A stretch of DNA of 49,668 nucleotides from a virus: the IMG/VR virus record IMGVR_UViG_3300009009_000017, positions 1 through 49,668 of that record. One strand, 5' to 3'. Under the pieces are notes generated by a model. The model was not told where the DNA came from and made no database searches. It was given only the letters and a program-made list of their open reading frames with translations. Below, piece by piece: positions 1 through 49,668 of this stretch; position 1 is the stretch's first letter, and each line of letters begins with the position of its first letter. Made by a program: the position numbers and the translations under genes.

Positions 1-441
1 AGAATAAGTTTTGCCATTTATAAATGTTTCACCAGGTATAATTGTATTTTCTGTTCTATTAAAAACTTCATCTTTAAACTGTTTTTTATAACAATCTCTG
101 CATAAATCAGTATTTGATAATGGCTCAAAATTAGCAAGTCCACATTCTGGACAATAATGCAAAATTTGTTTTTCATGTTCTTTATTTTCTTCATTTTCTT
201 CATATTCTTCTTTGAAACACGTATTACATAAAGGTGTTGCAGCATTTGGCAACAAAATTATATTTTCACATTTTGGACAATAATGGTTGCCATCATCGTT
301 CACATAAGTTCCAGCATATTCACTCATTTTAATCATCCTTTCTTTCTCTAATTGCAAATCAATTGCATTGCAAATTTTATTTTCTTGCTCATTTGCTAAA
401 ATGCCAAGTTTTATTAGAATTTTTTCAATTAATTTTTTCAT
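1..441 (-). CDS. Double zinc-ribbon protein (3' end cut by window edge)
   Basis: An open frame of 147 codons runs off the left edge without a stop. It starts at an ATG seven bases after a GGAG ribosome site; a later in-frame ATG at 327 has a GAAAGG site and is a weaker alternative. Two CxxC-x13-CxxC zinc ribbons are visible (C55/C58/C72/C75 and C97/C100/C114/C117), separated by an acidic Glu/Lys-rich linker. Such proteins usually bind nucleic acid or a protein partner, but no specific function can be assigned. It is the last visible gene of the minus-strand block and follows another zinc-ribbon gene by 17 bases, so the two are probably co-transcribed. Confidence 0.75.
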   Translation of the reverse strand, partial: MKKLIEKILIKLGILANEQENKICNAIDLQLEKERMIKMSEYAGTYVNDDGNHYCPKCENIILLPNAATPLCNTCFKEEYEENEENKEHEKQILHYCPECGLANFEPLSNTDLCRDCYKKQFKDEVFNRTENTIIPGETFINGKTYS

Positions 442-458
442 AAGTTTCTCCATTTTTT

Positions 459-800
459 TTAAATTTTTGTTATGGCAATATTTGTTATCATATAATTTAT
501 ATGATGCTTGACTGTTTTGTGAAATAACCTTAATGCATTACTACAATCTCCTGTTGTTATTTCTTTTATTTTCAGTTCATCTAAATTATTATCATTTTCA
601 GTATATGTAAAAATAAATTTATATAATTTAGGCTTAGGTTTTTGTATATTAAGTTTTTTAATTTCTGAACTTTTAATATTAGCAATATTAAATTCCATTT
701 CTTTTATAAGCTGATGTTCGTTTTCATAGCAATATTTGCAATAATATATACCTGCTTTTTTTGTATATTCTCCGCATATTCTACATCTTTCAGTATCCAT
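459..800 (-). CDS. Zinc-ribbon protein, unknown function
   Basis: 113 residues beginning with a compact zinc ribbon, C6/C9 and C21/C24, followed by a Lys-rich middle and a hydrophobic C-terminus. An ATG start lies behind a GAAAGGA sequence at a slightly long spacing. The N-terminus resembles the ribbon of the next gene downstream, so the two may share a role. No catalytic motif was seen. Function unknown. Confidence 0.7.
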   Translation of the reverse strand: MDTERCRICGEYTKKAGIYYCKYCYENEHQLIKEMEFNIANIKSSEIKKLNIQKPKPKLYKFIFTYTENDNNLDELKIKEITTGDCSNALRLFHKTVKHHINYMITNIAITKI

Positions 801-817
801 TTAAATAAAATATCCTT

Positions 818-1339
818 TCATTTTAAATAATTAAAATTTATGTTTATTATGCTTGTATCATATATCGGATTAATCCTATATTTTATTTTTTTGACAGAAT
901 CTTTTACCCTTTTTGCTAGTGTTTGTTCTGTCAAATATATCTTAAACTTTCTGCTATAGTTTTCAGCAATATCTTTATAAGTCATTTTATAAAAATATTT
1001 ACATTTTACAATATATTTATTTTCAAAGGTAAGAGCATTGATTGCTTTATCAATATTATCAACCTGATTTCTCCTTTCCAACAATTTTGTTTTTGCTCTT
1101 GCCAATAATTCTCTGATTATTTGATGATTCATTTTGTGGGCTGTTTCTCTTTTCAATACTTGTTTCTCTACCTCTGAATATATAATACTTACGTCTCTTA
1201 CTCCAAAAAAAGTGGCATGTTTGTAGTATTCTAGTTCCGATAAGTCTTCCTGTCTCAGTAGTTTTTCGTAATATTCTATGTTACTTTCAATTATCGATAT
1301 TTCTGTTTTTATAGAAATATAGTTATATAAAATTTTCAC
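818..1339 (-). CDS. Sigma-region-4-like late transcription regulator (ArpU/RinA-like)
   Basis: 173 residues with a GTG start preceded by AAAGGG. The N-terminal two thirds is helical with many charged residues. The C-terminal part, about residues 105-155 (around KYFYKMTYKDIAENY and LAKRVKDSVKKIKYR), has the spacing of a sigma-70 region 4 helix-turn-helix. Small proteins of this type in Gram-positive phages (ArpU and RinA families) switch on late genes. The assignment rests on domain shape and length only. It is far from the terminase genes in this linear window, which is unusual for a late activator unless the genome is circularly permuted or this block is a separate element. Confidence 0.55.
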   Translation of the reverse strand: MKILYNYISIKTEISIIESNIEYYEKLLRQEDLSELEYYKHATFFGVRDVSIIYSEVEKQVLKRETAHKMNHQIIRELLARAKTKLLERRNQVDNIDKAINALTFENKYIVKCKYFYKMTYKDIAENYSRKFKIYLTEQTLAKRVKDSVKKIKYRINPIYDTSIININFNYLK

Positions 1340-1394
1340 ATATAATCAGCCCTTTCTGCTATAATATAAAAAAAGGCTGTCGGATAAATTTTTC

Positions 1395-1423
1395 AGAGTA
1401 GGTGTTGCCCTACTCTTTTTTTT
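1395..1423 (+). terminator. Hairpin with T-run, reads as a plus-strand terminator
   Basis: AGAGTAGG and CCTACTCT form an 8-bp stem around a short loop and are followed by eight T on the plus strand. No plus-strand gene precedes it, so it either stops antisense transcription or acts as a leader or spacer hairpin between the minus genes on either side. Confidence 0.45.
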
Positions 1424-1431
1424 ATTTTAAA

Positions 1432-1614
1432 TTACAAAATTAGCAATGCTAATATATTTAAAATTAAAAGTATGCTAAAAAGTATAATTTTAATTTTATT
1501 ATCAAAATAATTTGGTAAATCTATTTGTTCATGTATAAATACTATTAAAGCAACAATACATACAACAATTGCAATTATATTTAATATTGCTGCTATAATA
1601 TTTAAAGTAATCAT
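1432..1614 (-). CDS. Small two-helix membrane protein
   Basis: 60 residues with two hydrophobic helices (about 3-27 and 40-60) joined by a short polar loop (HEQIDLPNYFDNK). The ATG overlaps the stop of the preceding gene as ATGA, which implies translational coupling. Holin, antiholin or superinfection-exclusion roles are possible, but nothing in the sequence decides between them. Confidence 0.65.
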   Translation of the reverse strand: MITLNIIAAILNIIAIVVCIVALIVFIHEQIDLPNYFDNKIKIILFSILLILNILALLIL

Positions 1615-1898
1615 TCTTCATTCTCCTTCAGTACATTTTCTACTATAGCATTTTCTATTTTAAATTTTATGTTATAGTAGTTTCCAACTCTATAACTTGA
1701 GAAATCATCATCTCCATAAACGGGCAATCTGTAAATAGGCAATTGGAAAAATGCATTATTATTTTCAAAATACATAAGAAAATGATTATCTTTTTGCTCT
1801 ATTTGTATCAGTTTACAATTACACTCTTTAAATTTTGTGTAATCTTCCGCATTTGGTTTTTTCTTAATCAATCCTTGTTCAATAAAATCAACCAACAT
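1611..1898 (-). CDS. Hypothetical protein, 95 aa
   Basis: An ATG start sits behind a GGAGG site. The protein is mixed alpha/beta-like, rich in aromatic residues in the middle (FFQLPIYRLPVYGDDD), with an acidic C-terminus. It is coupled by a 4-base overlap to the small membrane protein downstream. Family not recognised. Confidence 0.65.
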   Translation of the reverse strand: MLVDFIEQGLIKKKPNAEDYTKFKECNCKLIQIEQKDNHFLMYFENNNAFFQLPIYRLPVYGDDDFSSYRVGNYYNIKFKIENAIVENVLKENEE

Positions 1899-5184: not shown

Positions 5185-5213
5185 ATTATACTTACTATGA
5201 AAAAACATGTCAA
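5185..5213 (-). promoter_or_regulatory. Consensus sigma-A promoter for the XRE repressor
   Basis: On the minus strand, TTGACA and TATAAT are separated by exactly 17 bases and lie about 30 bases upstream of the repressor start. Confidence 0.85.
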
Positions 5214-41731: not shown

Positions 41732-42570
41732 CAAAAACCCTCCTGTATAAATTCACCGTCCCAGTATTTTTTAAGATTATCTTTCATGAAAATTGATATA
41801 TTTTTTACTCTGCATATATTAACCAGTGCTTCTAAAGCTTTATTATATGGTTTTAAAATTCTATTTCCGGTCATAGCACCAATAATAATTTTTCCTGGAA
41901 TAGATTTATTAGTATGTTTAAGTTCAAATGGATTATCTATAGTACAATTTAAAAATGGTTCTGCTGAAACAAATCTTCTTTCTTTATCACTTATAAAACT
42001 TAAATAATGTATCTTTGGTTCTTCTCTATGATCTGTTATAGTTATCCCAAAATAAGCATTTTCTAAATTTAGCAAGCACCCCAAACCATTTTCATATAAT
42101 TTCATAAATCTATTCGCATTTTTGGTAAGAAAAATAAATTTATGCTGTTGGCATTTTTCAACTACTTCAAATATTTTTTCTATCCATTCATCTGGAACCC
42201 ATGAACCAAACAAATCAGCCATACTGCAAACAAATATAACTTTTCCTTTTGTTTTGTTAACTGGTTCATCAAGTCTGTACTTGTGAAATGTTGGCTCAAA
42301 ATAATATGGATAAGGTTCAATTTTCTTTTTTGGGTAAAATGTATATACTGGATTATCTAAATAATGTATTTTTTCATATTGTGTATAAGTTTCACAACTT
42401 TTACACGAATCCTTTTTACAATCTGGAGCATATCCACAATTTTCAGGTATACTATATCCACCAAACCTTTCAGCTATCTTTTTCGCGTAACAATATTTAC
42501 AATTATGATAACAGCCTGTAACTGGATTCCAACTCATATCACACCAATCAATTTTAGTTTTATTCATCAT
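41731..42570 (-). CDS. DUF5131 / phage Gp37-Gp68-like radical-SAM-type protein
   Basis: 279 residues. It opens TKIDWCDMSWNPVTGCYHNC, then KYCYAKKIAERFGG. The cluster motif is C20-x3-C24-x2-C27, the 4Fe-4S ligand pattern of radical SAM enzymes. Two further Cys pairs follow (YAPDCKKDSCKSC). The later VIFVCSMADLFGSWVPDEWI and KFIFLTKNANRF stretches are typical of this phage family, which is related to spore photoproduct lyase-like enzymes. The substrate is unknown; modification or repair of nucleic acid is the usual guess. Only a weak GGAAG ribosome site is seen. Confidence 0.85.
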   Translation of the reverse strand: MMNKTKIDWCDMSWNPVTGCYHNCKYCYAKKIAERFGGYSIPENCGYAPDCKKDSCKSCETYTQYEKIHYLDNPVYTFYPKKKIEPYPYYFEPTFHKYRLDEPVNKTKGKVIFVCSMADLFGSWVPDEWIEKIFEVVEKCQQHKFIFLTKNANRFMKLYENGLGCLLNLENAYFGITITDHREEPKIHYLSFISDKERRFVSAEPFLNCTIDNPFELKHTNKSIPGKIIIGAMTGNRILKPYNKALEALVNICRVKNISIFMKDNLKKYWDGEFIQEGF

Positions 42571-42599
42571 CTTCCGTTGAGTAAAACTTATAAAAATTT

Positions 42600-42925
42600 A
42601 TAAATTAATATATTAAACTTATAAATTTTATAAAGTTCATTCCTTGTTCATCGCGTCCCATTTGGTCTAATCTTAAAAAGATTATGACTACTCTGGTTTG
42701 ATATAACGCTCCAAAGGCTTAAATTTCCGTACAACGCACGGTACATATTAACAGTATCTTTTTAGTGATATTCTGTTAATTACTCAACTTACTCCTTTCC
42801 TAAAATTTTTATTACATTTATAAATATCGTGTGTAAGACTCTTAAGCCCTGAATAAAATCCAGTCGAGATTTACAATACATTCCCACGAACCTATAACGA
42901 TTTATAGGATTTTGTAAGTTCTTAT
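42600..42925 (-). ncRNA. Structured intergenic region, candidate ncRNA or long leader
   Basis: The 364-base gap at 42571-42934 has no gene, and its GC is visibly higher in patches. Stems seen: CCTATAA/TTATAGG with a four-base loop (42891-42908), competing AAAATCC/GGATTTT (42855-42861, 42907-42913), ATTAACAG plus TATC with GATA plus CTGTTAAT (12 bp, 42747-42780), CCGT/ACGG (42727-42741), TAATCTT/AAGATTA (42668-42684), and GCGT/ACGC closing the last part (42653-42709). An AAAGGAG on the minus strand precedes TTG-AGT-AAT-TAA, a three-codon frame. It could be a 5' leader of the DUF5131 gene or a separate RNA. Confidence 0.5.
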
Positions 42926-42934
42926 AAGTTTTTG

Positions 42935-43201
42935 TTAACTGTTATCTTCCTCCAATCCATAATTCAACCATCTTTTGCAACTTCCTAAACTCTTAAATTC
43001 TTCTGTCCATGCATGGCTCTTCCTATTATCAATTCCAATGTAAACTCCATTGTCAATAGAATAAAAAGCCCCTAAAGGTATTCTATTTTCAATTATGCTT
43101 ATAGATTCTTTTTTACTTACTTTTTTAACTTCCGTAACAATCATCGCAATTTGACTATCTTTAAATTTTTTGTTATGTTTAAAAATTTCTGCATGCTTCA
43201 T
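42935..43201 (-). CDS. Hypothetical protein, 88 aa
   Basis: The ATG follows AAAGGA. The protein has a basic N-terminus, a beta-rich centre (LGAFYSIDNGVYIGIDNRKS) and a conserved-looking end (AWTEEFKSLGSCKRWL). It lies just upstream of the structured region. Not recognised. Confidence 0.6.
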   Translation of the reverse strand: MKHAEIFKHNKKFKDSQIAMIVTEVKKVSKKESISIIENRIPLGAFYSIDNGVYIGIDNRKSHAWTEEFKSLGSCKRWLNYGLEEDNS

Positions 43202-43246
43202 TACAATTTATCCTTTCCAGTTTGTCGTAAATCCCTACCAACTTAT

Positions 43247-43957
43247 CTAAAATGGTAATTCTTTTTCTCTTTTTATAAAATTTTCTTTGCACTTTTCCGA
43301 ACAAAATAATCTTTCATTATCTTTTATCATTTTATTTTGAAATAAATCTTTACAGTTGTTGCATTTATTCATTTTGCTAATAATTTTAAATATTTCAAGA
43401 TATGCATACATGCAAATTGGTGTAGCTCTTCCAATTTCCCACAATTCAGAATCATGCAATTCATCAACCTCACTTATTGTATTATAATAATCTCCATACA
43501 ATTTCATTTCCCATTCTTCTATAGTTCTAACATCTTGAGCTAATCCAATTAATACTTTATATACATTTCTCAATTTATTTAATTTTTCATTATCACAGCT
43601 ATGATAATCTTTCATTTCATCAAACCAATATTTTAAATCATCAAGAGCAATTTTTGTTTGAAATTCCTCTTTTTTGCCACTTAAACATCTTAACTTACCT
43701 ATAAAATAATACATATCATATTTAGCAATCTTTTCTATTTCAGCCTTTTCAGTTAAACAATAAATAGCTTCTCCAATATCCCCAGTAATAATTATATAAT
43801 TTCTATCAAGTATAATCCTTACTGCATATTGATAACTATTATCAGCTTTTATAAAATCTATTTCTGTTGCATTATAAAAGTTGCTTTTTATTGTTGCTTT
43901 GTGAGTAGGAAACCACGTTTCTCTAATTTGCTTTAAATATAATTCTTTTAAATCCAT
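43247..43957 (-). CDS. Hypothetical protein with C-terminal treble-clef zinc motif, 236 aa
   Basis: Residues 1-190 are mixed alpha/beta without a known motif. The C-terminal 40 residues carry CNNCKDLFQ ... RLFCSEKCKENF, a CxxC ... CxxxC zinc finger like those at the end of phage-encoded HNH and small DNA-binding proteins. AAAGGA precedes the ATG at a normal distance and is itself preceded by a GGAGGC/GCCTCC hairpin. Function unknown. Confidence 0.6.
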   Translation of the reverse strand: MDLKELYLKQIRETWFPTHKATIKSNFYNATEIDFIKADNSYQYAVRIILDRNYIIITGDIGEAIYCLTEKAEIEKIAKYDMYYFIGKLRCLSGKKEEFQTKIALDDLKYWFDEMKDYHSCDNEKLNKLRNVYKVLIGLAQDVRTIEEWEMKLYGDYYNTISEVDELHDSELWEIGRATPICMYAYLEIFKIISKMNKCNNCKDLFQNKMIKDNERLFCSEKCKENFIKREKELPF

Positions 43958-43974
43958 TTTATTTTATCCTTTCT

Positions 43975-43992
43975 GGAGGCTATTATGCCTCC
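43975..43992 (-). promoter_or_regulatory. Hairpin just upstream of the ribosome site
   Basis: GGAGGC-ATAATA-GCCTCC on the minus strand, a 6-bp perfect stem, lies five bases before AAAGGA of the next gene. It may slow translation or act as a processing or stability hairpin between genes. Confidence 0.5.
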
Positions 43993-43999
43993 ACTTTTG

Positions 44000-44155
44000 T
44001 TATTTTTTTAATGACTTTATTTTTTCTTTTATTTCTTCATATTTTTTATCTAACTTTTTATTATTCTTATAATAAAAGCATAAAAAGTATACATATGGAG
44101 AACAAATCATTAAAATCACTATTATAAAACCAAATATTATTAATATATTATCCAT
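44000..44155 (-). CDS. Small membrane protein, 51 aa
   Basis: One membrane helix (ILIIFGFIIVILMICSPYVYFLCFYY) is followed by a Lys/Glu coiled-coil tail. AAAGGA lies about eleven bases upstream, and the start overlaps the end of the previous small frame. It resembles holin-like or membrane-anchoring peptides. Function unknown. Confidence 0.6.
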   Translation of the reverse strand: MDNILIIFGFIIVILMICSPYVYFLCFYYKNNKKLDKKYEEIKEKIKSLKK

Positions 44156-44285
44156 TTAAAGATAATCTTTCCTTTCTCTTTTTAGCCAGTATGCTTAAGG
44201 TACTGGCTAAATTCTTCTCAAAATACTTACTAATTTTTATATTGATTCCAGCTTCATCATTTTTGCATTGCTCTTTTATAGTCAC
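44148..44285 (-). CDS. Possible small protein, 45 aa
   Basis: A GTG start overlaps the previous stop as GTGA and lies nine bases after GGAAGG. The product is basic and helical (KNLASTLSILAKKRKERL). It is supported by coupling and ribosome site only. The stem TTAGCCAGTA/TACTGGCTAA near its end could instead mean that this is an untranslated leader. Confidence 0.45.
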   Translation of the reverse strand: MTIKEQCKNDEAGINIKISKYFEKNLASTLSILAKKRKERLSLNG

Positions 44286-44662
44286 ACTATCCATCCTTCC
44301 TGTGAAAAAGGATTAACCAATTTTATTCCATCACTTTTCAAAGATTCTTCGCATTCATCAATATAATATTTCTTACAAACATCAGTATCAATTAAAAATA
44401 TTTCAATTACATCTAAATATTCATCATATTCAATACCATATTCCCAATCATATGATTCCTCTTGTTCTATCTTAGCAATAATAATATATCTATTGTCAAC
44501 TTCTATTTCTTTAGCATCTATCAAATTTTCAAGTAACATGTCTATAGAATCAGTACAATCATAATCGTCTTTAACATCATAAGAATATTCAACTCTATCA
44601 CTTATAAATCTTTCAGAATCATTGAACACATCAACAGTTATTACTACATCACATTTTTTCAT
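44282..44662 (-). CDS. Hypothetical acidic protein, 126 aa
   Basis: The ATG overlaps the previous stop (ATGA). The protein is strongly acidic with alternating strands (DVVITVDVFND, NRYIIIAKIEQEESYDWEYGIEYDE). Its negative charge suggests a DNA mimic or metal binder. No family recognised. Confidence 0.65.
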   Translation of the reverse strand: MKKCDVVITVDVFNDSERFISDRVEYSYDVKDDYDCTDSIDMLLENLIDAKEIEVDNRYIIIAKIEQEESYDWEYGIEYDEYLDVIEIFLIDTDVCKKYYIDECEESLKSDGIKLVNPFSQEGWIV

Positions 44663-44964
44663 ACCTCTTCACCTTTTTCCTTTTTATGTTGTTGTTGCAA
44701 TTCTTTCTCAATTCTTTCTAATTCTCCAAAGTTAATAAATCCTTCTGAAATTATGTATTCTATAAGTGTATCTTTGTTGTACCCATTAAGTTTTTCCACA
44801 ACTGTACATTTTTTAATTTTCTCTTTATGCTTTCTCATGTCCTTTTCTCCTCTCGATTCATAATATTCAAAATCCAAATTTTTTATGTATTCTTCAAAAC
44901 AGCAATTACAAAGTTGTAGTATTATATCCCTATCTATTTCACATCCACACTTTTCACAATTCAT
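44659..44964 (-). CDS. Zinc-ribbon protein, 101 aa
   Basis: N-terminal ribbon C3-x2-C6-x-C8 and C19-x-C21-C22 (NCEKCGCEIDRD, QLCNCCFEE), then helical segments with a Lys/Glu-rich end. Both ends overlap neighbours, so it is part of a tightly packed early operon. Probably nucleic-acid or protein binding. Confidence 0.65.
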   Translation of the reverse strand: MNCEKCGCEIDRDIILQLCNCCFEEYIKNLDFEYYESRGEKDMRKHKEKIKKCTVVEKLNGYNKDTLIEYIISEGFINFGELERIEKELQQQHKKEKGEEV

Positions 44965-45224
44965 ACTGCACCTTCTTTATTTTCTGTTGCGATTTCATGC
45001 AAAAACTTTCTCAATATTTCTATTTCACCAGATGCATATGTTATCTGGTCATTCACTATGTTTAAGTCATTGTTAACTATTCTTTGCTCTTCTTCATTGC
45101 CAGGTCTTTTTAGTAATAACTTTGCCCTTTCTTTTGAAAGATTATCTCTTCGTTTAAATTTTATGTCCAGTAAATCAGAATACTTTTTATACAAGCTATA
45201 ACTTATTTTTATTTCAATACCCAT
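44961..45224 (-). CDS. Helical hypothetical protein, 87 aa
   Basis: Mostly two antiparallel helices (YSDLLDIKFKRRDNLSKERAK, VNDQITYASGEIEILRKFLHE). The ATG overlaps the upstream gene by 16 bases and follows GGGAAG. Unknown. Confidence 0.6.
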   Translation of the reverse strand: MGIEIKISYSLYKKYSDLLDIKFKRRDNLSKERAKLLLKRPGNEEEQRIVNNDLNIVNDQITYASGEIEILRKFLHEIATENKEGAV

Positions 45225-45379
45225 ATATCTTCACTTCCCTTATAATCCGAATTTATATATCTCACATTGCCAATTACAACAGATTCAAGATAATAATTAA
45301 AATCAGCATCATTAAACCTTTTCTTAGCAAAATTTACAAAACTTATTATTTTAATCTCCATATGATTTCTATTTGACAT
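45209..45379 (-). CDS. Small hypothetical protein, 56 aa
   Basis: An ATG follows GGAGG by ten bases. The product has a helix (VNFAKKRFNDADFNYYLESV) between short strands. It fits exactly between the replisome organiser and the next gene and overlaps the latter. Unknown. Confidence 0.6.
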   Translation of the reverse strand: MSNRNHMEIKIISFVNFAKKRFNDADFNYYLESVVIGNVRYINSDYKGSEDIWVLK

Positions 45380-45399
45380 TTTATGTAATCCTCCTTCAC

Positions 45400-46587
45400 T
45401 TACTTTATATAATCAATATTGTCATACAAATTATCAAAGAAATCATCATCATATTCCCGCTGTTCATAATTTGTACTTTGTATAGGTTTGTTGTTGTTGT
45501 AATTCTTATATCCAGTATTCTTCTTAAATTGTTCCTCGGTTCCCCAGGTCTTACAAAATTTATAGAATACCTTTTCAACTTCCTTTGCACTGGAGACATA
45601 ATCACCAAATATATCAATACATTTTTTAACAATGTCAATCCCTTTTTCTTTTATGAGATTATTTAATAATTTTGGATCCAATTCTCCTTTATATTTCTTT
45701 TTAAAAGATTCAATAAGATTTTTTACAACAACAACATTTTCATTTGATTTTTCATGTTGTTGTATATCTGTATTTAGATCTGTTTCTATATCTGTATCTG
45801 TATCTGTGTAACTGGTAGACGTCACTGTGACGTCACAAAATTCGTTGCAAGATTCATAATATCCAATAGATTGAAGTATTTCACTAGGTATAAAATTATT
45901 ATTTTCATTTAAATTAGAATGACATTTTCTACATAATGTTAATAATTTTTCTTTTAGTGATGATTTATAATCTAATTCATTATATCCATCTATATGATGC
46001 ATACATAAATTATCAATAGATCCACAAATTGCACATTTGTAATTGTCTCTTTCAAAAACTATATAATAATTTCCGTTATATCTTTTTGCGTTCTGGTAAT
46101 CTTCAATATATGGTATATACTGTTTTTCATAACATTTCTTTTTTGCTCTGTAAATTTGTGAACGCTCAGTTGATGTTTTTGCTGGTGATTTTATTTGTTG
46201 TTTATTTTCTAATTCTAATTGCTTCTTCTTTTCTCTATGCTTTCTCATTCTTTCAGCACTTGTAGACTCTTTACCGATTAGATTTGGTATTATACTCATA
46301 AAAATTTCATCTTCTGAAATTTCTTTAACTAATTGATTTTTTATAAGAAACAATATTGTAACTTTTACGTTTTCAACATCTTCATCAATTTCAAGAGCTA
46401 TCTCTTCTGCAAAATCATCTTCAACTCCATCAAAATATAATTTACCTTCGTTTTTTAAGCTTAGTAATAACATTTTTTGATATATTATTGTATATGTATC
46501 GCCACCAGCTATTTTTCTAAGTTTTTTTATTTCTTTTTGCCTGAAAAAATCTTCATTAAGTTTTAGCCAATAATATTTTCTTGCCAT
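45400..46587 (-). CDS. Replisome organiser with an inserted HNH nuclease domain
   Basis: 395 residues. The ATG is chosen for its spacing from GAGGTG. Residues 1-125 are a phage replisome-organiser N-domain (KYYWLKLNEDFFRQKEIKKL, STSAERMRKHREKKK). Residues about 178-226 are an HNH zinc nuclease: C185/C188, H197/H198 (CMHHIDG) and C219/C222-H223 (LCRKCHSNL). After a Ser/Thr/Asp linker (DVTVTSTSYTDTDTD) comes a DnaD-like helical region (about 285-365) and the QSTNYEQR/YDDDFFDNLYDNI tail shared with the 3.9-kb protein. It would bind the origin and load the helicase; the HNH may nick the origin or be a homing insertion. Confidence 0.8.
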   Translation of the reverse strand: MARKYYWLKLNEDFFRQKEIKKLRKIAGGDTYTIIYQKMLLLSLKNEGKLYFDGVEDDFAEEIALEIDEDVENVKVTILFLIKNQLVKEISEDEIFMSIIPNLIGKESTSAERMRKHREKKKQLELENKQQIKSPAKTSTERSQIYRAKKKCYEKQYIPYIEDYQNAKRYNGNYYIVFERDNYKCAICGSIDNLCMHHIDGYNELDYKSSLKEKLLTLCRKCHSNLNENNNFIPSEILQSIGYYESCNEFCDVTVTSTSYTDTDTDIETDLNTDIQQHEKSNENVVVVKNLIESFKKKYKGELDPKLLNNLIKEKGIDIVKKCIDIFGDYVSSAKEVEKVFYKFCKTWGTEEQFKKNTGYKNYNNNKPIQSTNYEQREYDDDFFDNLYDNIDYIK

Positions 46588-46613
46588 TATGTTCACCTCA
46601 TGGGAAACCTCTG

Positions 46614-47390
46614 TTAAGAGGCTTCCTTATTTCTTTTATTTAGTATTTCATTTTTTACTTTTTCAGCTATTTCAGGATATCTCATTTTAATTTTTCCATA
46701 TGTAGCCTGCAATCTAGCAATACTTAAACTATCAGTGTTTGTTACTCCTGCTACCTTATTTCCATTTTTGCCAACAAATGAAGTATATTGTTCTAGTAAT
46801 TTTTTTGATTCTATTTCATTTTTTCCTGAAACTTCCCACAAGATTAATTTTATTTTTTTGATGTAATCAACTCTTGTACACTTTTGTGGAGGTATATTGC
46901 TAGTTTTATTTTCAATTTTATTATCACTACCTGTATTTTTATTATATTTGTTTTCATCTGCATTAAAATAAACATCTGCACCAATACCAAGAGCTTTACA
47001 AGCTACAGACAAAGCGTCTGTATAAGCCATTTTGAAACATTCATCCGAGGTATAAAGACCATTTTTATTTTTTTCAACAAATGAACTTCCCCCACTGCCT
47101 TCGATTGCTTCTGACCATTCACCATCAATTTTGATATATAATTCTATATCTACAAATGCTGATTTTTCTCCATTTGCTCCATCTTCAATCCATTTTTTAA
47201 TAGTTTTGGTTTTCCATCCAAAACCTATAATTCCGAATGTTTCAGTTAGCTTTTTTATTCTCCACATAGCATTTATGTTAGTCTTTCCGTTCATTCTTCC
47301 ACCTTGAATAGTTGTTTTTGCTTCGTCTGGAACTATTCTTAACTGGTTATAAAGGTCTAAGTTTGTATTTGAATTTTCCATCATAATCAT
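46614..47390 (-). CDS. Rad52-like single-strand annealing protein (Sak/DUF1071-like)
   Basis: 258 residues behind GGAGG. The N-terminal part (TTIQGGRMNGKTNINAMWRI, TFGIIGFGWKTKTI, VDIELYIKIDGEWSEAIEGS, GGSSFVEKNKNGLYTSDECF, YTDALSVACKALGIGADVYF) follows the beta-beta-beta-alpha core of phage annealing proteins. The ALSVACKALGIGADVY helix is especially characteristic. It anneals complementary single strands in phage recombination and replication. No partner exonuclease or SSB was found nearby. Confidence 0.8.
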   Translation of the reverse strand: MIMMENSNTNLDLYNQLRIVPDEAKTTIQGGRMNGKTNINAMWRIKKLTETFGIIGFGWKTKTIKKWIEDGANGEKSAFVDIELYIKIDGEWSEAIEGSGGSSFVEKNKNGLYTSDECFKMAYTDALSVACKALGIGADVYFNADENKYNKNTGSDNKIENKTSNIPPQKCTRVDYIKKIKLILWEVSGKNEIESKKLLEQYTSFVGKNGNKVAGVTNTDSLSIARLQATYGKIKMRYPEIAEKVKNEILNKRNKEAS

Positions 47391-47415
47391 AATAACCTCC
47401 AGAAATTTTATTTTA

Positions 47416-47436
47416 GAGAGGGATTAAATCCCTCTC
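47416..47436 (-). promoter_or_regulatory. Leader hairpin of the annealing-protein gene
   Basis: GAGAGGGAT/ATCCCTCTC form a perfect 9-bp stem with a three-base loop, followed by TAAAATAAAATT and the GGAGG site. The layout matches the hairpin-then-TAAATAAAAT leaders at 39.8 and 40.2 kb. Confidence 0.55.
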
Positions 47437-47438
47437 AT

Positions 47439-47612
47439 TTATTTTGTTAGTAAACTGTTTAATGCCATTCTCTTTTCTGCCTGTTCCCTTATAAAAAGTT
47501 TATTACCTGTATTTAGGAATCTGTGTGTTTTTATTTTTCCTATTTTCCATTTCAACATAAGGGATTTTCTAAGTTTCATATATCTATTTGATATTATTGT
47601 GTATTTTGACAT
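47439..47612 (-). CDS. Small basic protein, 57 aa
   Basis: The ATG directly follows the TAA of the upstream gene, so it is probably translated by reinitiation. The product is strongly basic (RYMKLRKSLMLKWKIGKIK, FIREQAEKRMALN) and may bind nucleic acid. It lies just before the annealing protein. Confidence 0.55.
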   Translation of the reverse strand: MSKYTIISNRYMKLRKSLMLKWKIGKIKTHRFLNTGNKLFIREQAEKRMALNSLLTK

Positions 47613-47765
47613 TTAAGCAGCCACCTCCATTTCTGGAATGAAACTGTTGTAATAACCTGATGTTTTAAGATATGTTTCAAATTCTTCTGCTTTCTCTGAT
47701 TCGTAAGATTCGATTGGTTCTGATTCGTACCCTTCGATTTCATAACCCATTGTAAAAATATCCAT
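47613..47765 (-). CDS. Small acidic protein under a structured leader, 50 aa
   Basis: The ATG lies seven bases after a perfect AGGAGG. The product is acidic and Tyr-rich (YEIEGYESEPIESYESEKAE). The ribosome site is buried in a hairpin and the transcript begins at a perfect consensus promoter, so expression looks conditional. It is the first gene of the replication operon. Function unknown. Confidence 0.65.
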   Translation of the reverse strand: MDIFTMGYEIEGYESEPIESYESEKAEEFETYLKTSGYYNSFIPEMEVAA

Positions 47766-47883
47766 AATAAAACCTCCTATTGATTTTTTAGGAGGTACAA
47801 TGTATACTAAAATTACAATGGAATTTCGGTATGCATTGTACCAAGTTTCTCGTAAGGTGGTTGTCGCTAGCAACCACCTTACA
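47766..47883 (-). promoter_or_regulatory. Structured 5' leader sequestering the ribosome site
   Basis: From the predicted start, the RNA opens with GTAAGGTGGTTG/CAACCACCTTAC (12 bp, 47852-47882). Next is GGTACAATG/CATTGTACC (47834-47842 with 47794-47802), with a second CATTGTA at 47814-47820 as alternative partner. Last is ACCTCCTA/TAGGAGGT (47789-47796 with 47772-47779), which covers AGGAGG. The second and third stems share bases 47794-47796, so they compete, as in a riboswitch or protein-controlled leader. Confidence 0.6.
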
Positions 47884-47889
47884 TTTACT

Positions 47890-47918
47890 ATTATAACTTA
47901 TAACTTACCAAGTGTCAA
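47890..47918 (-). promoter_or_regulatory. Perfect sigma-A promoter of the replication operon
   Basis: TTGACA, exactly 17 bases, TATAAT on the minus strand. It lies seven to eight bases before the first hairpin of the leader. Confidence 0.88.
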
Positions 47919-47953
47919 TTACTTTTTTATTACAAAAATAAAGATTATAAATA

Positions 47954-48169
47954 TTATTTTATAACCTTTAAATTTTTCTCATGATATTCAATTATGCTTT
48001 CATCAAAGATATATACTCCTCTTTTTTTTCTTTTAGATTTTTTCAATCGATAATAAGACTGTGGTATTCTTTCTCTTTTTATTAAATCTAAAATGTTAGA
48101 CTCTGTTGTTCCAATTATATCAGCGACTTCTGATAAAATTAAAATCTTATCTAATAAATTTTTACTCAA
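47954..48169 (-). CDS. Helix-turn-helix regulator (excisionase/MerR-like), 71 aa
   Basis: A TTG start lies six bases after GAGGTG. The reading LSEVADIIGTTESNILDLIKRERIPQSYY is a winged helix-turn-helix of excisionase or MerR type, followed by a basic stretch and GVYIFDESIIEYHEK, the usual wing and last helix. It is transcribed from 48223-48252 and points toward the replication-operon promoter. A role in early-gene control or in excision is likely. Confidence 0.7.
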   Translation of the reverse strand: MSKNLLDKILILSEVADIIGTTESNILDLIKRERIPQSYYRLKKSKRKKRGVYIFDESIIEYHEKNLKVIK

Positions 48170-48222
48170 AAAATCACCTCTATTCACTTTTAACTTTATA
48201 ATTAATTCGACTTGCTAAATTA

Positions 48223-48252
48223 ATTATAATTTGCTATTTGCTTATTCGTCAA
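48223..48252 (-). promoter_or_regulatory. Promoter for the HTH regulator
   Basis: TTGACG, 18 bases, TATAAT on the minus strand, about 50 bases before the TTG start. Confidence 0.7.
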
Positions 48253-48269
48253 TTACGATATAGAAGTTT

Positions 48270-48347
48270 TGTATTGACATTTGCAATACATTACTTGCTT
48301 TCTTGCAAGTATGCTTTGATTTTCTTTGTGTTGCATTTTACAACACA
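48270..48347. promoter_or_regulatory. Three tandem operator-like dyads
   Basis: TGTATTG-N7-CAATACA (48270-48290), TACTTGC-N6-GCAAGTA (48292-48311) and TGTGTTG-N7-CAACACA (48327-48347) lie just upstream of the regulator promoter. All have 7-bp arms meeting at a TTG/CAA core and are 20-21 bases long. This resembles a phage operator cluster. They sit in the 323-base gap at 48170-48492. Confidence 0.6.
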
Positions 48348-48365
48348 TTTTTATTTTTGCAAAAT

Positions 48366-48393
48366 AAAAACCACAGGGATAATATCCCTGTGG
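48366..48393 (-). terminator. Terminator downstream of the ParB-like gene
   Basis: CCACAGGGATA/TATCCCTGTGG form an 11-bp stem with a one-base centre, followed by TTTTTATTTT on the minus strand. Confidence 0.8.
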
Positions 48394-48492
48394 AAAAAAT
48401 TTAATAGGATTAAAAATCATATGGAATTTTTCAAAAAAAATTTTATTATACACTTTTTAATAAAATAATTATATAATTGCATTGATTAAAAT

Positions 48493-49248
48493 TTATTTTT
48501 TTATATATGCATCTATATCATCAAAATATAGATGATTTTTTTTATTTAAATTATAATTATATTTTTCTTGTAATACATCTATATATTCAGAAACGGTAGC
48601 TCTTGGACTTATTTTAGGACGATTTTTTAATCTATCAATCATTCTTTTATGATTATATTTTTTTGACCTTGTTATTTTCCATATAGCACTTATAAAATAA
48701 AAATTAGTATAATCAATCCCATCTATTATTTTATAATCAAGTATTTGTTTTATTCTTTTTATCGTGTCATTATAATTTTTAAATTTAAATAATCCATCTT
48801 TTATTATATCTGTTTTATCAGTTCTTTTAGTTCTTGCAAATGAATCTTTTGCAGATATTATAAAAAAATTTTTCTGGGTTATTTCTGGAAAAATTCTTGG
48901 TAATTCACAAAGTTTTTTGTATTCACTATTTTCTAAAGCATATGATTCTACGTAATCCCACGATTTCCAACTTGTCATATTTTTGTTTATTGTTCGAGCT
49001 TCATTTATTCCTTCATTTTCTGAAATATAATAATAAATTGGTTTTTCGGATTCTTTTGCAGCCATGAATCTATGTTGACCATCTAATATTTCCATATTTT
49101 CATTAACCTTTATTGGATTAATTATAAATTTTTTACACATTGCTTCTTTCAACCTATTTTTTTTAGTTATATCTATGTTCCTATTTCCTTTTAAAAATTT
49201 AAATATAGAATAATTTTTAGTGCAATAAATTTTTAATTCTTTTTCCAT
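48493..49248 (-). CDS. ParB/sulfiredoxin-superfamily protein
   Basis: 251 residues. The ATG is behind AAAGGAG; two TTG codons upstream are less likely. The N-terminal ParB-like NTPase core reads NPIKVNENMEILDGQHRFMAAKE, with the box motif D56-G-Q-H-R60. A helical C-terminal domain (about 110-251) has no clear ParB helix-turn-helix. No ParA is nearby. Phage proteins of this type act as regulators or nucleases rather than in partition. It has its own promoter and terminator. Confidence 0.8.
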   Translation of the reverse strand: MEKELKIYCTKNYSIFKFLKGNRNIDITKKNRLKEAMCKKFIINPIKVNENMEILDGQHRFMAAKESEKPIYYYISENEGINEARTINKNMTSWKSWDYVESYALENSEYKKLCELPRIFPEITQKNFFIISAKDSFARTKRTDKTDIIKDGLFKFKNYNDTIKRIKQILDYKIIDGIDYTNFYFISAIWKITRSKKYNHKRMIDRLKNRPKISPRATVSEYIDVLQEKYNYNLNKKNHLYFDDIDAYIKK

Positions 49249-49273
49249 CAACAACAGCTCCTTTTTGTAATAT

Positions 49274-49301
49274 ATTATAAACTAATAATTTAATATGTAA
49301 A
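49274..49301 (-). promoter_or_regulatory. Promoter for the ParB-like gene
   Basis: TTTACA, 16 bases, TATAAT on the minus strand, about 20 bases before the ribosome site. Confidence 0.65.
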
Positions 49302-49412
49302 ATAAAAATTAAAATCTAATAATTAATTAATTTAATATATCTGCAATATAGGGAAATAATTGTAATTAATATAATATAATTATAAAATAAAAATAAAACA
49401 AAGGAGATTTAT

Positions 49413-49668
49413 ATGAAAAAAACAATTTTAGTAATGATAGTAATGATTTGCATTTTGTCTGGCTGTGATTATGGGCCAGAAGTTGAAAAATATAATGGGA
49501 AAAATACAGATGCTACAACAACAGAAAAAACAGAAGTTACGGAAAAAGAAAAAGCCCCAGAAATTTATAACGATCTGGAAGTAAAATTTGAATTGAAGAA
49601 AACATCTTATGGGTCCAATAATCTTGTTGGAATATATAAAAATAATTCTGAATATGCTATAACTAAAA
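49413..49668 (+). CDS. Lipoprotein (3' end cut by window edge)
   Basis: The ATG follows AAAGGAG. The signal peptide MKKTILVMIVMICILSGC has a lipobox LSGC, so the mature protein would be lipid-anchored at the Cys. A Thr/Glu/Lys-rich linker follows, then a beta-rich start (LEVKFELKKTSYGSNNLVGIY). It is on the opposite strand from the phage early genes. It may be a lysogenic-conversion gene or the first flanking host gene. The rest lies outside the window. Confidence 0.75.
   Translation, partial: MKKTILVMIVMICILSGCDYGPEVEKYNGKNTDATTTEKTEVTEKEKAPEIYNDLEVKFELKKTSYGSNNLVGIYKNNSEYAITK

Follow-up and report, generated by a model that had tools for sequence, protein, structure and literature searches.

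Among the copy-number controls of Gram-positive plasmids, antisense attenuators are a textbook example, and they are in use as a part family in synthetic biology. Another way of opening a transcript with RNA is found in phage lambda, where the N leader acts through RNase III and N. In plasmid pT181, the repC leader is bound by a countertranscript of 87 nt, which releases the 5′ arm of stem-loop IV from a pre-emptor; stem-loop IV is the predicted holder of the RBS and stops transcription (PMC5703833; PMC5435934). The 83-nt RNAI of pSK41 acts on translation (PMC5703833). The HK022 putRNAs, two stem-loops near early promoters, act directly on RNA polymerase (PMC9378689). Already known are, besides plasmid antisense attenuators, the phage antisense RNAs sar of P22 and c4 of P1/P7, which stop antirepressor synthesis (PMC12197685). 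In the open-licence papers searched, no pT181-type pre-emptor attenuator turned up on phages, whether before a replication operon or before Gram-positive antirepressors.

The leader considered here lies on the minus strand of a viral sequence of 49,668 nucleotides (IMG/VR record IMGVR_UViG_3300009009_000017; hereafter the window, meaning this whole stretch). It is most probably a pT181-type antisense-RNA attenuator of the first gene of a replication operon, a reading based on its pT181-like parts, on the energetics of masking and on the covariation of stem P2. Anatomy, conservation, covariation, promoter placement and energetics come from sequence and computation; the antisense RNA, its ends, its binding and the repression are what we infer from them.

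The sense promoter (47890..47918, minus strand; TTGACA at 47918-47913, 17 nt, TATAAT at 47895-47890) matches the consensus at 12/12 positions, and is as perfect as the first-pass annotation had described it. A promoter scan gives it as the single 12/12 match within 42500-49668. Across the whole window, exact TTGACA-17-TATAAT occurs twice; the other copy (5185-5213, minus strand) lies upstream of a small helix-turn-helix-like gene. With +1 placed 7 nt past the −10 hexamer and the ATG at 47765, the structured leader measures ∼118 nt, against the 117 bases given earlier. It begins with P0, the 12-bp hairpin already noted at the 5′ end (47852..47882, minus strand; GTAAGGTGGTTG/CAACCACCTTAC; read as 47882-47852). 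Stem P1, the closing stem of the predicted fold, joins GAAAC (47845..47849, minus strand) to GTTTT (47773-47769) right after the SD. P2 is formed by arm 1, the pre-emptor (GGTACAATGCATACCGAA, 47825..47842, minus strand), and arm 3 (TTTAGTATACATTGTACC, 47794..47811, minus strand), with 16/18 pairs in the window; arm 3 holds AGTATA, the complement of the antisense −10. Within it, GGTACAATG (47842-47834) pairs with CATTGTACC (47802-47794) over 9 bp, extendable to the 16/18. The P2 loop contains arm 2 (CCATTGTAA, 47813..47821, minus strand), which by sequence can pair with arm 1 or with arm 4 (TTACAATGG, 47747..47755, minus strand, within the first codons). P3 (47772..47796, minus strand) is an 8-bp hairpin joining ACCTCCTA (47796-47789) to TAGGAGGT (47779-47772); the latter contains the SD AGGAGG (47778-47773), which is buried as previously proposed. 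In the window, P3 is followed by a UUUUAUU tail.

P2 and P3 overlap by exactly three bases, ACC. Their mutual exclusion, claimed on this ground, holds as far as the shared ACC goes but is not strict: in the predicted fold P2 coexists with a P3 shortened to 5 bp, both closed by P1. Likewise, the two alternative partners ascribed to arm 1 are both present in the sequence (GGTACAATG also pairs over 7 bp with the loop CATTGTA), but the second one, arm 2, is not kept in the relative L024 described below. Folding of the leader RNA is much stronger than that of shuffled sequences (z −5.1 to −6.0; 0/200), and opening of the SD costs 7.2 kcal/mol, rank 3 from the top among 55 SD-bearing starts of the window and the L024 contig. 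Cotranscriptionally, P2 is predicted to form once arm 3 emerges, ahead of SD synthesis. In the window alone, transcription through codons 5–8 leads to a predicted closed equilibrium fold, reached in codon 8, through pairing of arm 2 with arm 4. This flip was set aside as a conserved switch, since L024 lacks arm 4, the arm 2 partner and the flip itself, and shuffling of the coding start reproduces it in 4.5% of cases. Two 7-codon mini-ORFs start from the P2 5′ half, MHTEIPL (window 47813-47836, minus strand) and MYTKIPN (L024 2404-2427, plus strand); lacking an SD, they were not retained as leader peptides.

As annotated at first pass, the leader precedes a tiny acidic protein and replication genes. 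The first controlled gene (47613..47765, minus strand) encodes a 50-aa acidic protein without family match in profile searches; its L024 homologue is 67% identical, with the last 23 residues identical. The ATG of the next gene (47439..47612, minus strand) directly follows its stop and begins a 57-aa basic protein, 98% identical in L024, for which AlphaFold predicts a single, uninformative helix. Then come a Rad52/ERF-like single-strand annealing protein (46614..47390, minus strand; phrog_7838), homologous to a Ruminococcus phage protein annotated as a Rad52/22 family annealing protein, and a replisome organiser (45400..46596, minus strand; PF09681; phrog_5968). The latter carries an HNH endonuclease domain, supported by HNH matches and inserted in-frame at about residues 153–240; the L024 homologue is without it and the L067 homologue has it. 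A hairpin with a paired change separates the genes of the 57-aa and annealing proteins (window 47416-47436, GAGAGGGATTTAATCCCTCTC; L024 ∼2803-2822, GAGAGGGTTTAAACCCTCTC) and is possibly a processing or coupling element. Just upstream of the leader, a gene encodes a 77-aa HTH-like protein whose resemblance to HTH_17 is below cut-off. A ParB-like protein (48493-49254, minus strand; phrog_12305) adjoins the replication operon. Further away, a RAGATH-18 RNA (42640-42717, minus strand; 72.1 bits) has no adjacent TnpB gene; the family is reported as a guide RNA of IS607 TnpB (PMC11061315), and this copy may be a relic or act as a guide on its own.

What had been overlooked is the opposite strand, where the conserved bases of the P3 loop and of the P2 3′ arm spell a predicted antisense promoter (47780..47808, plus strand; TTGATT at 47780-47785, 17 nt, TATACT at 47803-47808). 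It matches the consensus at 9/12 positions, and the exact TTGATT-17-TATACT motif occurs once in the window for 0.08 expected. Its complement is AAUCAA of the P3 loop and AGUAUA of P2, and it reads back over arm 1 and P0. Scanned on the plus strand, the P0 region is a terminator-like hairpin site, with a weak tail in the window (ATTTACTATT). This promoter and the proposed terminator are packed into the same 110 bp as the leader. The positions of the two delimit a putative antisense RNA of ∼75 nt (47815..47890, plus strand), able by its sequence to pair with P0 and with arms 1 and 2 and predicted to fold into two hairpins in both the window and L024.

In the proposed mechanism, arm 1 would pair with arm 3 as P2 during leader synthesis when antisense RNA is absent. 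P2 would take the ACC needed by P3, leaving a short SD hairpin that gives access to ribosomes. The convergent plus-strand promoter inside P3/P2 would make the short two-hairpin RNA ending at P0. Once bound to arm 1 and P0, this RNA would block P2, so that P3 could close with 8 bp over AGGAGG and stop translation of the acidic-protein gene together with its coupled genes. Because UUUUAUU follows P3, the closed hairpin may also halt transcription, as in pT181; the best reading is a translational control, possibly a transcriptional one too. Output would track the level of antisense RNA, in a dosage-type control. A convergent promoter sequence, a pre-emptor arm and an RBS-containing hairpin, the features of the pT181 class, are all present in sequence or prediction. 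The computed energies, which consider the RNA apart from proteins, ribosomes and kinetics, agree with the scheme. If arm 1 is withheld, opening of the SD takes 9–12 instead of ∼4–7 kcal/mol in the window and L024. Masking of the antisense-covered part raises the opening cost from 1.7–5.7 to 9.5–13.1 kcal/mol, a rise of 4.6–11.2 kcal/mol seen in 9/9 leaders.

The sole close relative found with a leader of the window type is L024 (IMG/VR contig IMGVR_UViG_3300009082_000005). Its gene order is that of the window, with a related HTH-like gene upstream, the leader, the acidic gene and the 57-aa gene; the annealing protein differs. Both hexamers and the 17-nt spacing of the sense promoter are retained in a changed spacer sequence. 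L024 also retains P0, P2, P3 and the closing stem, and its P2 is perfect (18/18), a stem without equal among 1,162 SD starts scanned. A covariance model built on L024 alone matches the window leader at 95 bits, and in a structure alignment 38/39 pairs are intact in L024 and 37/39 in the window. Three pairs show two-sided changes, one each in P1 (C–G in the window versus U–A in L024), P2 and P3. When the observed substitutions are permuted, pairing reaches P 0.0009 and double changes P 0.004, values that lean toward structure as the alignment was fitted to it; sliding the partners by 1–3 columns leaves zero double changes. Searches through the annealing protein, the 57-aa protein, the 77-aa protein and the replisome organiser gave no relative with the leader beyond L024. 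Other probes were discarded: a pattern scan for P0 reached 31 contigs, all by chance except L024, TTTAGTATACATNGTACC matched twice by chance in coding sequence, and an Enterococcus phage match to the SD region is A-rich chance sequence. Beside its replication region, L024 carries genes for a stand-alone DnaA N-terminal domain (1590-1859, minus strand) and a TnpB-like protein (309-1580, minus strand).

More distant leaders came from searching 391 genomes, all from a single Clostridia class, with the L024 model. A single match resulted (33.4 bits, E 4e-4), where chance would give ∼0.16 in a set of this size; it lies exactly upstream of a Bro-N antirepressor gene. It has hairpins resembling P0, P2 and P3 in unchanged order and keeps AAUCAA in the P3 loop, the stem CCUCC/GGAGG becoming CCUU/AAGG. 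A three-sequence model matched 8/71 genomes of that family, and 31 viral contigs, several with two copies, contained the element by pattern scan; these later searches used models and patterns derived from the E 4e-4 match and so probe spread, not membership. In this group, referred to as the C. difficile group and exemplified by Clostridioides phage phiCDKH02 of C. difficile, P3 has a CCTT/AAGG stem with the loop AAATCAA retained, and the downstream genes tested encode Bro-N or ORF6N antirepressors. On the antisense strand, the position of P0 is occupied by a hairpin followed by TTATTTTTTATT, a strong and long T-run. Four R2 matches (L163, L164, L166 and L167) were chance-like or set aside. 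The one model match together with the layout suggests that the C. difficile group is homologous to the window and L024 leaders, likeness of function being better supported than descent. Paired leader copies ∼2 kb apart occur in L171, L177, L179, L182, L189 and L196, where cross-talk of two antisense RNAs is possible, and CRISPR arrays (CRISPR-DR14 or DR3) stand no more than a few kb from many of the antirepressor leaders, in L158, L160, L162, L165, L171, L177, L179 and L196.

The antisense promoter motif has the same location in the window, in L024 and in the C. difficile-group leaders, with a spacing of 17, once 16, and with TATAAT replacing TATACT in L165; the contig scan pattern included the complement of the −35 and the motif listing was selected for the motif, so that in the 31 contigs independence is limited to the −10, the spacing and the remainder. 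The AGTATA and AATCAA bases are unpaired or unchanged across members, and those of arm 3 are invariant in a three-way alignment. In an alignment of 17 distinct rows, which include the reverse strands of the window and L024 as two rows, P2 shows two-sided changes in 7/18 pairs (21 cells). This cell count is reached by 0/500 shuffles, and slid controls are far lower. Collectively, the switch-like leader hiding its SD, as first described, is borne out by the compensatory changes in L024, by the 17-row covariation of P2 and by the anti-sequester effect of P2 in all members tested. Covariation among related leaders, the check suggested at the time, brought two-sided changes in the closing stem P1 as well as in P2 and P3. 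The earlier observation is thus confirmed, and its interpretation partly supported.

The unsupported part concerns the trigger, for which sensing of a molecule or binding of a protein had been proposed. Neither the window nor the L024 leader matches an Rfam riboswitch family and there is no conserved unpaired core; loops vary, and the conserved bases belong to the stems and the antisense promoter. An antisense RNA is indicated instead, and a metabolite riboswitch is unlikely. In favour of a sensing element, the stems compete at the SD and the window leader is predicted to close once codons 5–8 are transcribed, a closure absent in L024 and given by the same 4.5% of shuffled coding starts. As to a thermometer, opening of the SD varies smoothly with temperature, without sharp transition. 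For metabolite and temperature sensing together, the probability is minimal. Binding of a phage protein, such as the 57-aa basic protein or an annealing protein, to P0/P2 as a translational operator setting P3 would agree with the covarying stems and with a basic protein of one long predicted helix that accompanies the leader in L024 too (98% identical). It leaves unexplained why AAUCAA and AGUAUA stand at promoter spacing ahead of unrelated genes, as it does the ctRNA_pT181 matches given below, and the 57-aa protein was found neither in ∼600 Clostridia/Firmicutes genomes nor in the phage and plasmid collections searched. Such an operator is unlikely.

P2 is also an inverted repeat downstream of a promoter, and as DNA it could bind a repressor, perhaps the 77-aa protein encoded upstream with its sub-threshold likeness to HTH_17, folding being incidental. 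Two-sided changes in P1 and P3, outside the palindrome, speak against a DNA operator, as do the constant adjacency of the SD to the repeat and the lack of further convincing half-site copies within the window; the probability left to it is low. Long perfect stems are general RNase III substrates, so a plain 5′ stability leader deserves mention, and so does a put-like antiterminator, given terminator-like sites downstream at 41.3 and 39.1 kb and a likeness to the HK022 putRNA (PMC9378689). The put stems, however, are nearly adjacent and have a specific core, whereas P0 and P2 stand 9–11 nt apart, outside the put definition; a cut in P2 is predicted to tighten P3 rather than open it, and the antisense promoter is explained by neither idea. 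Both are very improbable. On the side of antisense attenuation, Rfam ctRNA_pT181 (RF00242) matches short stretches of the antisense strands of L162 (41.2 bits), L158 (38 bits) and phiCDKH02 (38.2 bits) with E 7e-5 to 5e-4, all below the gathering score of 56 bits. It gave no match for the window or L024, and no other Rfam antisense family matched the C. difficile-group leaders.

If antisense attenuation operates here, the dosage of antisense RNA would determine phage replication or induction, and in Clostridia, C. difficile included, both phage replication and prophage induction would be tied to it. The general claim that countertranscript attenuators related to those of plasmid copy number are widespread in Clostridia phages, before the replication operon and antirepressors, has about an even chance of being right. 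ParB-like or DnaA-like genes are further present at the window and L024 loci, and the ParB-like gene next to a putative antisense control prompts the question whether the prophage is kept in a plasmid-like state. Acting in trans, the antisense RNA would be expected to shut down this leader on a superinfecting relative, which would amount to an RNA-based immunity with specificity residing in the variable P0/P2 loops. The leader would also add natural attenuators to the part family of synthetic biology.

Among known systems, the lambda N leader and the HK022 putRNA resemble the present leader as structured RNAs opening an early phage transcript and differ from it in working without antisense RNA. 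P22 sar and P1/P7 c4 share with it an antisense stop on antirepressors, as proposed for the C. difficile-group members; sar, compared by description, and c4 are described as pairing near the start of the ant mRNA instead of working by a pre-emptor, and belong to Gram-negative hosts. Closer is pSK41 rep/RNAI of the RepA_N plasmids, where a two-hairpin antisense RNA of ∼83 nt induces an RBS-hiding hairpin in a translational control (PMC5703833), a likeness drawn by description, the pSK41 target lying ∼100 nt upstream of the start region. The nearest parallel is pT181 repC/RNAI. Unlike pT181, the present leaders are phage-borne and, where pT181 has repC, face antirepressors or an acidic-protein/replication operon; the window P0 loop differs, and P3 is without a strong U-run in several members. 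What they have in common with it is a convergent two-hairpin antisense RNA, here putative, a pre-emptor arm and an SD hairpin before the start codon, and the putative antisense RNAs of the C. difficile group share the terminator loop CAAACUUUGGUC with the RF00242 consensus.
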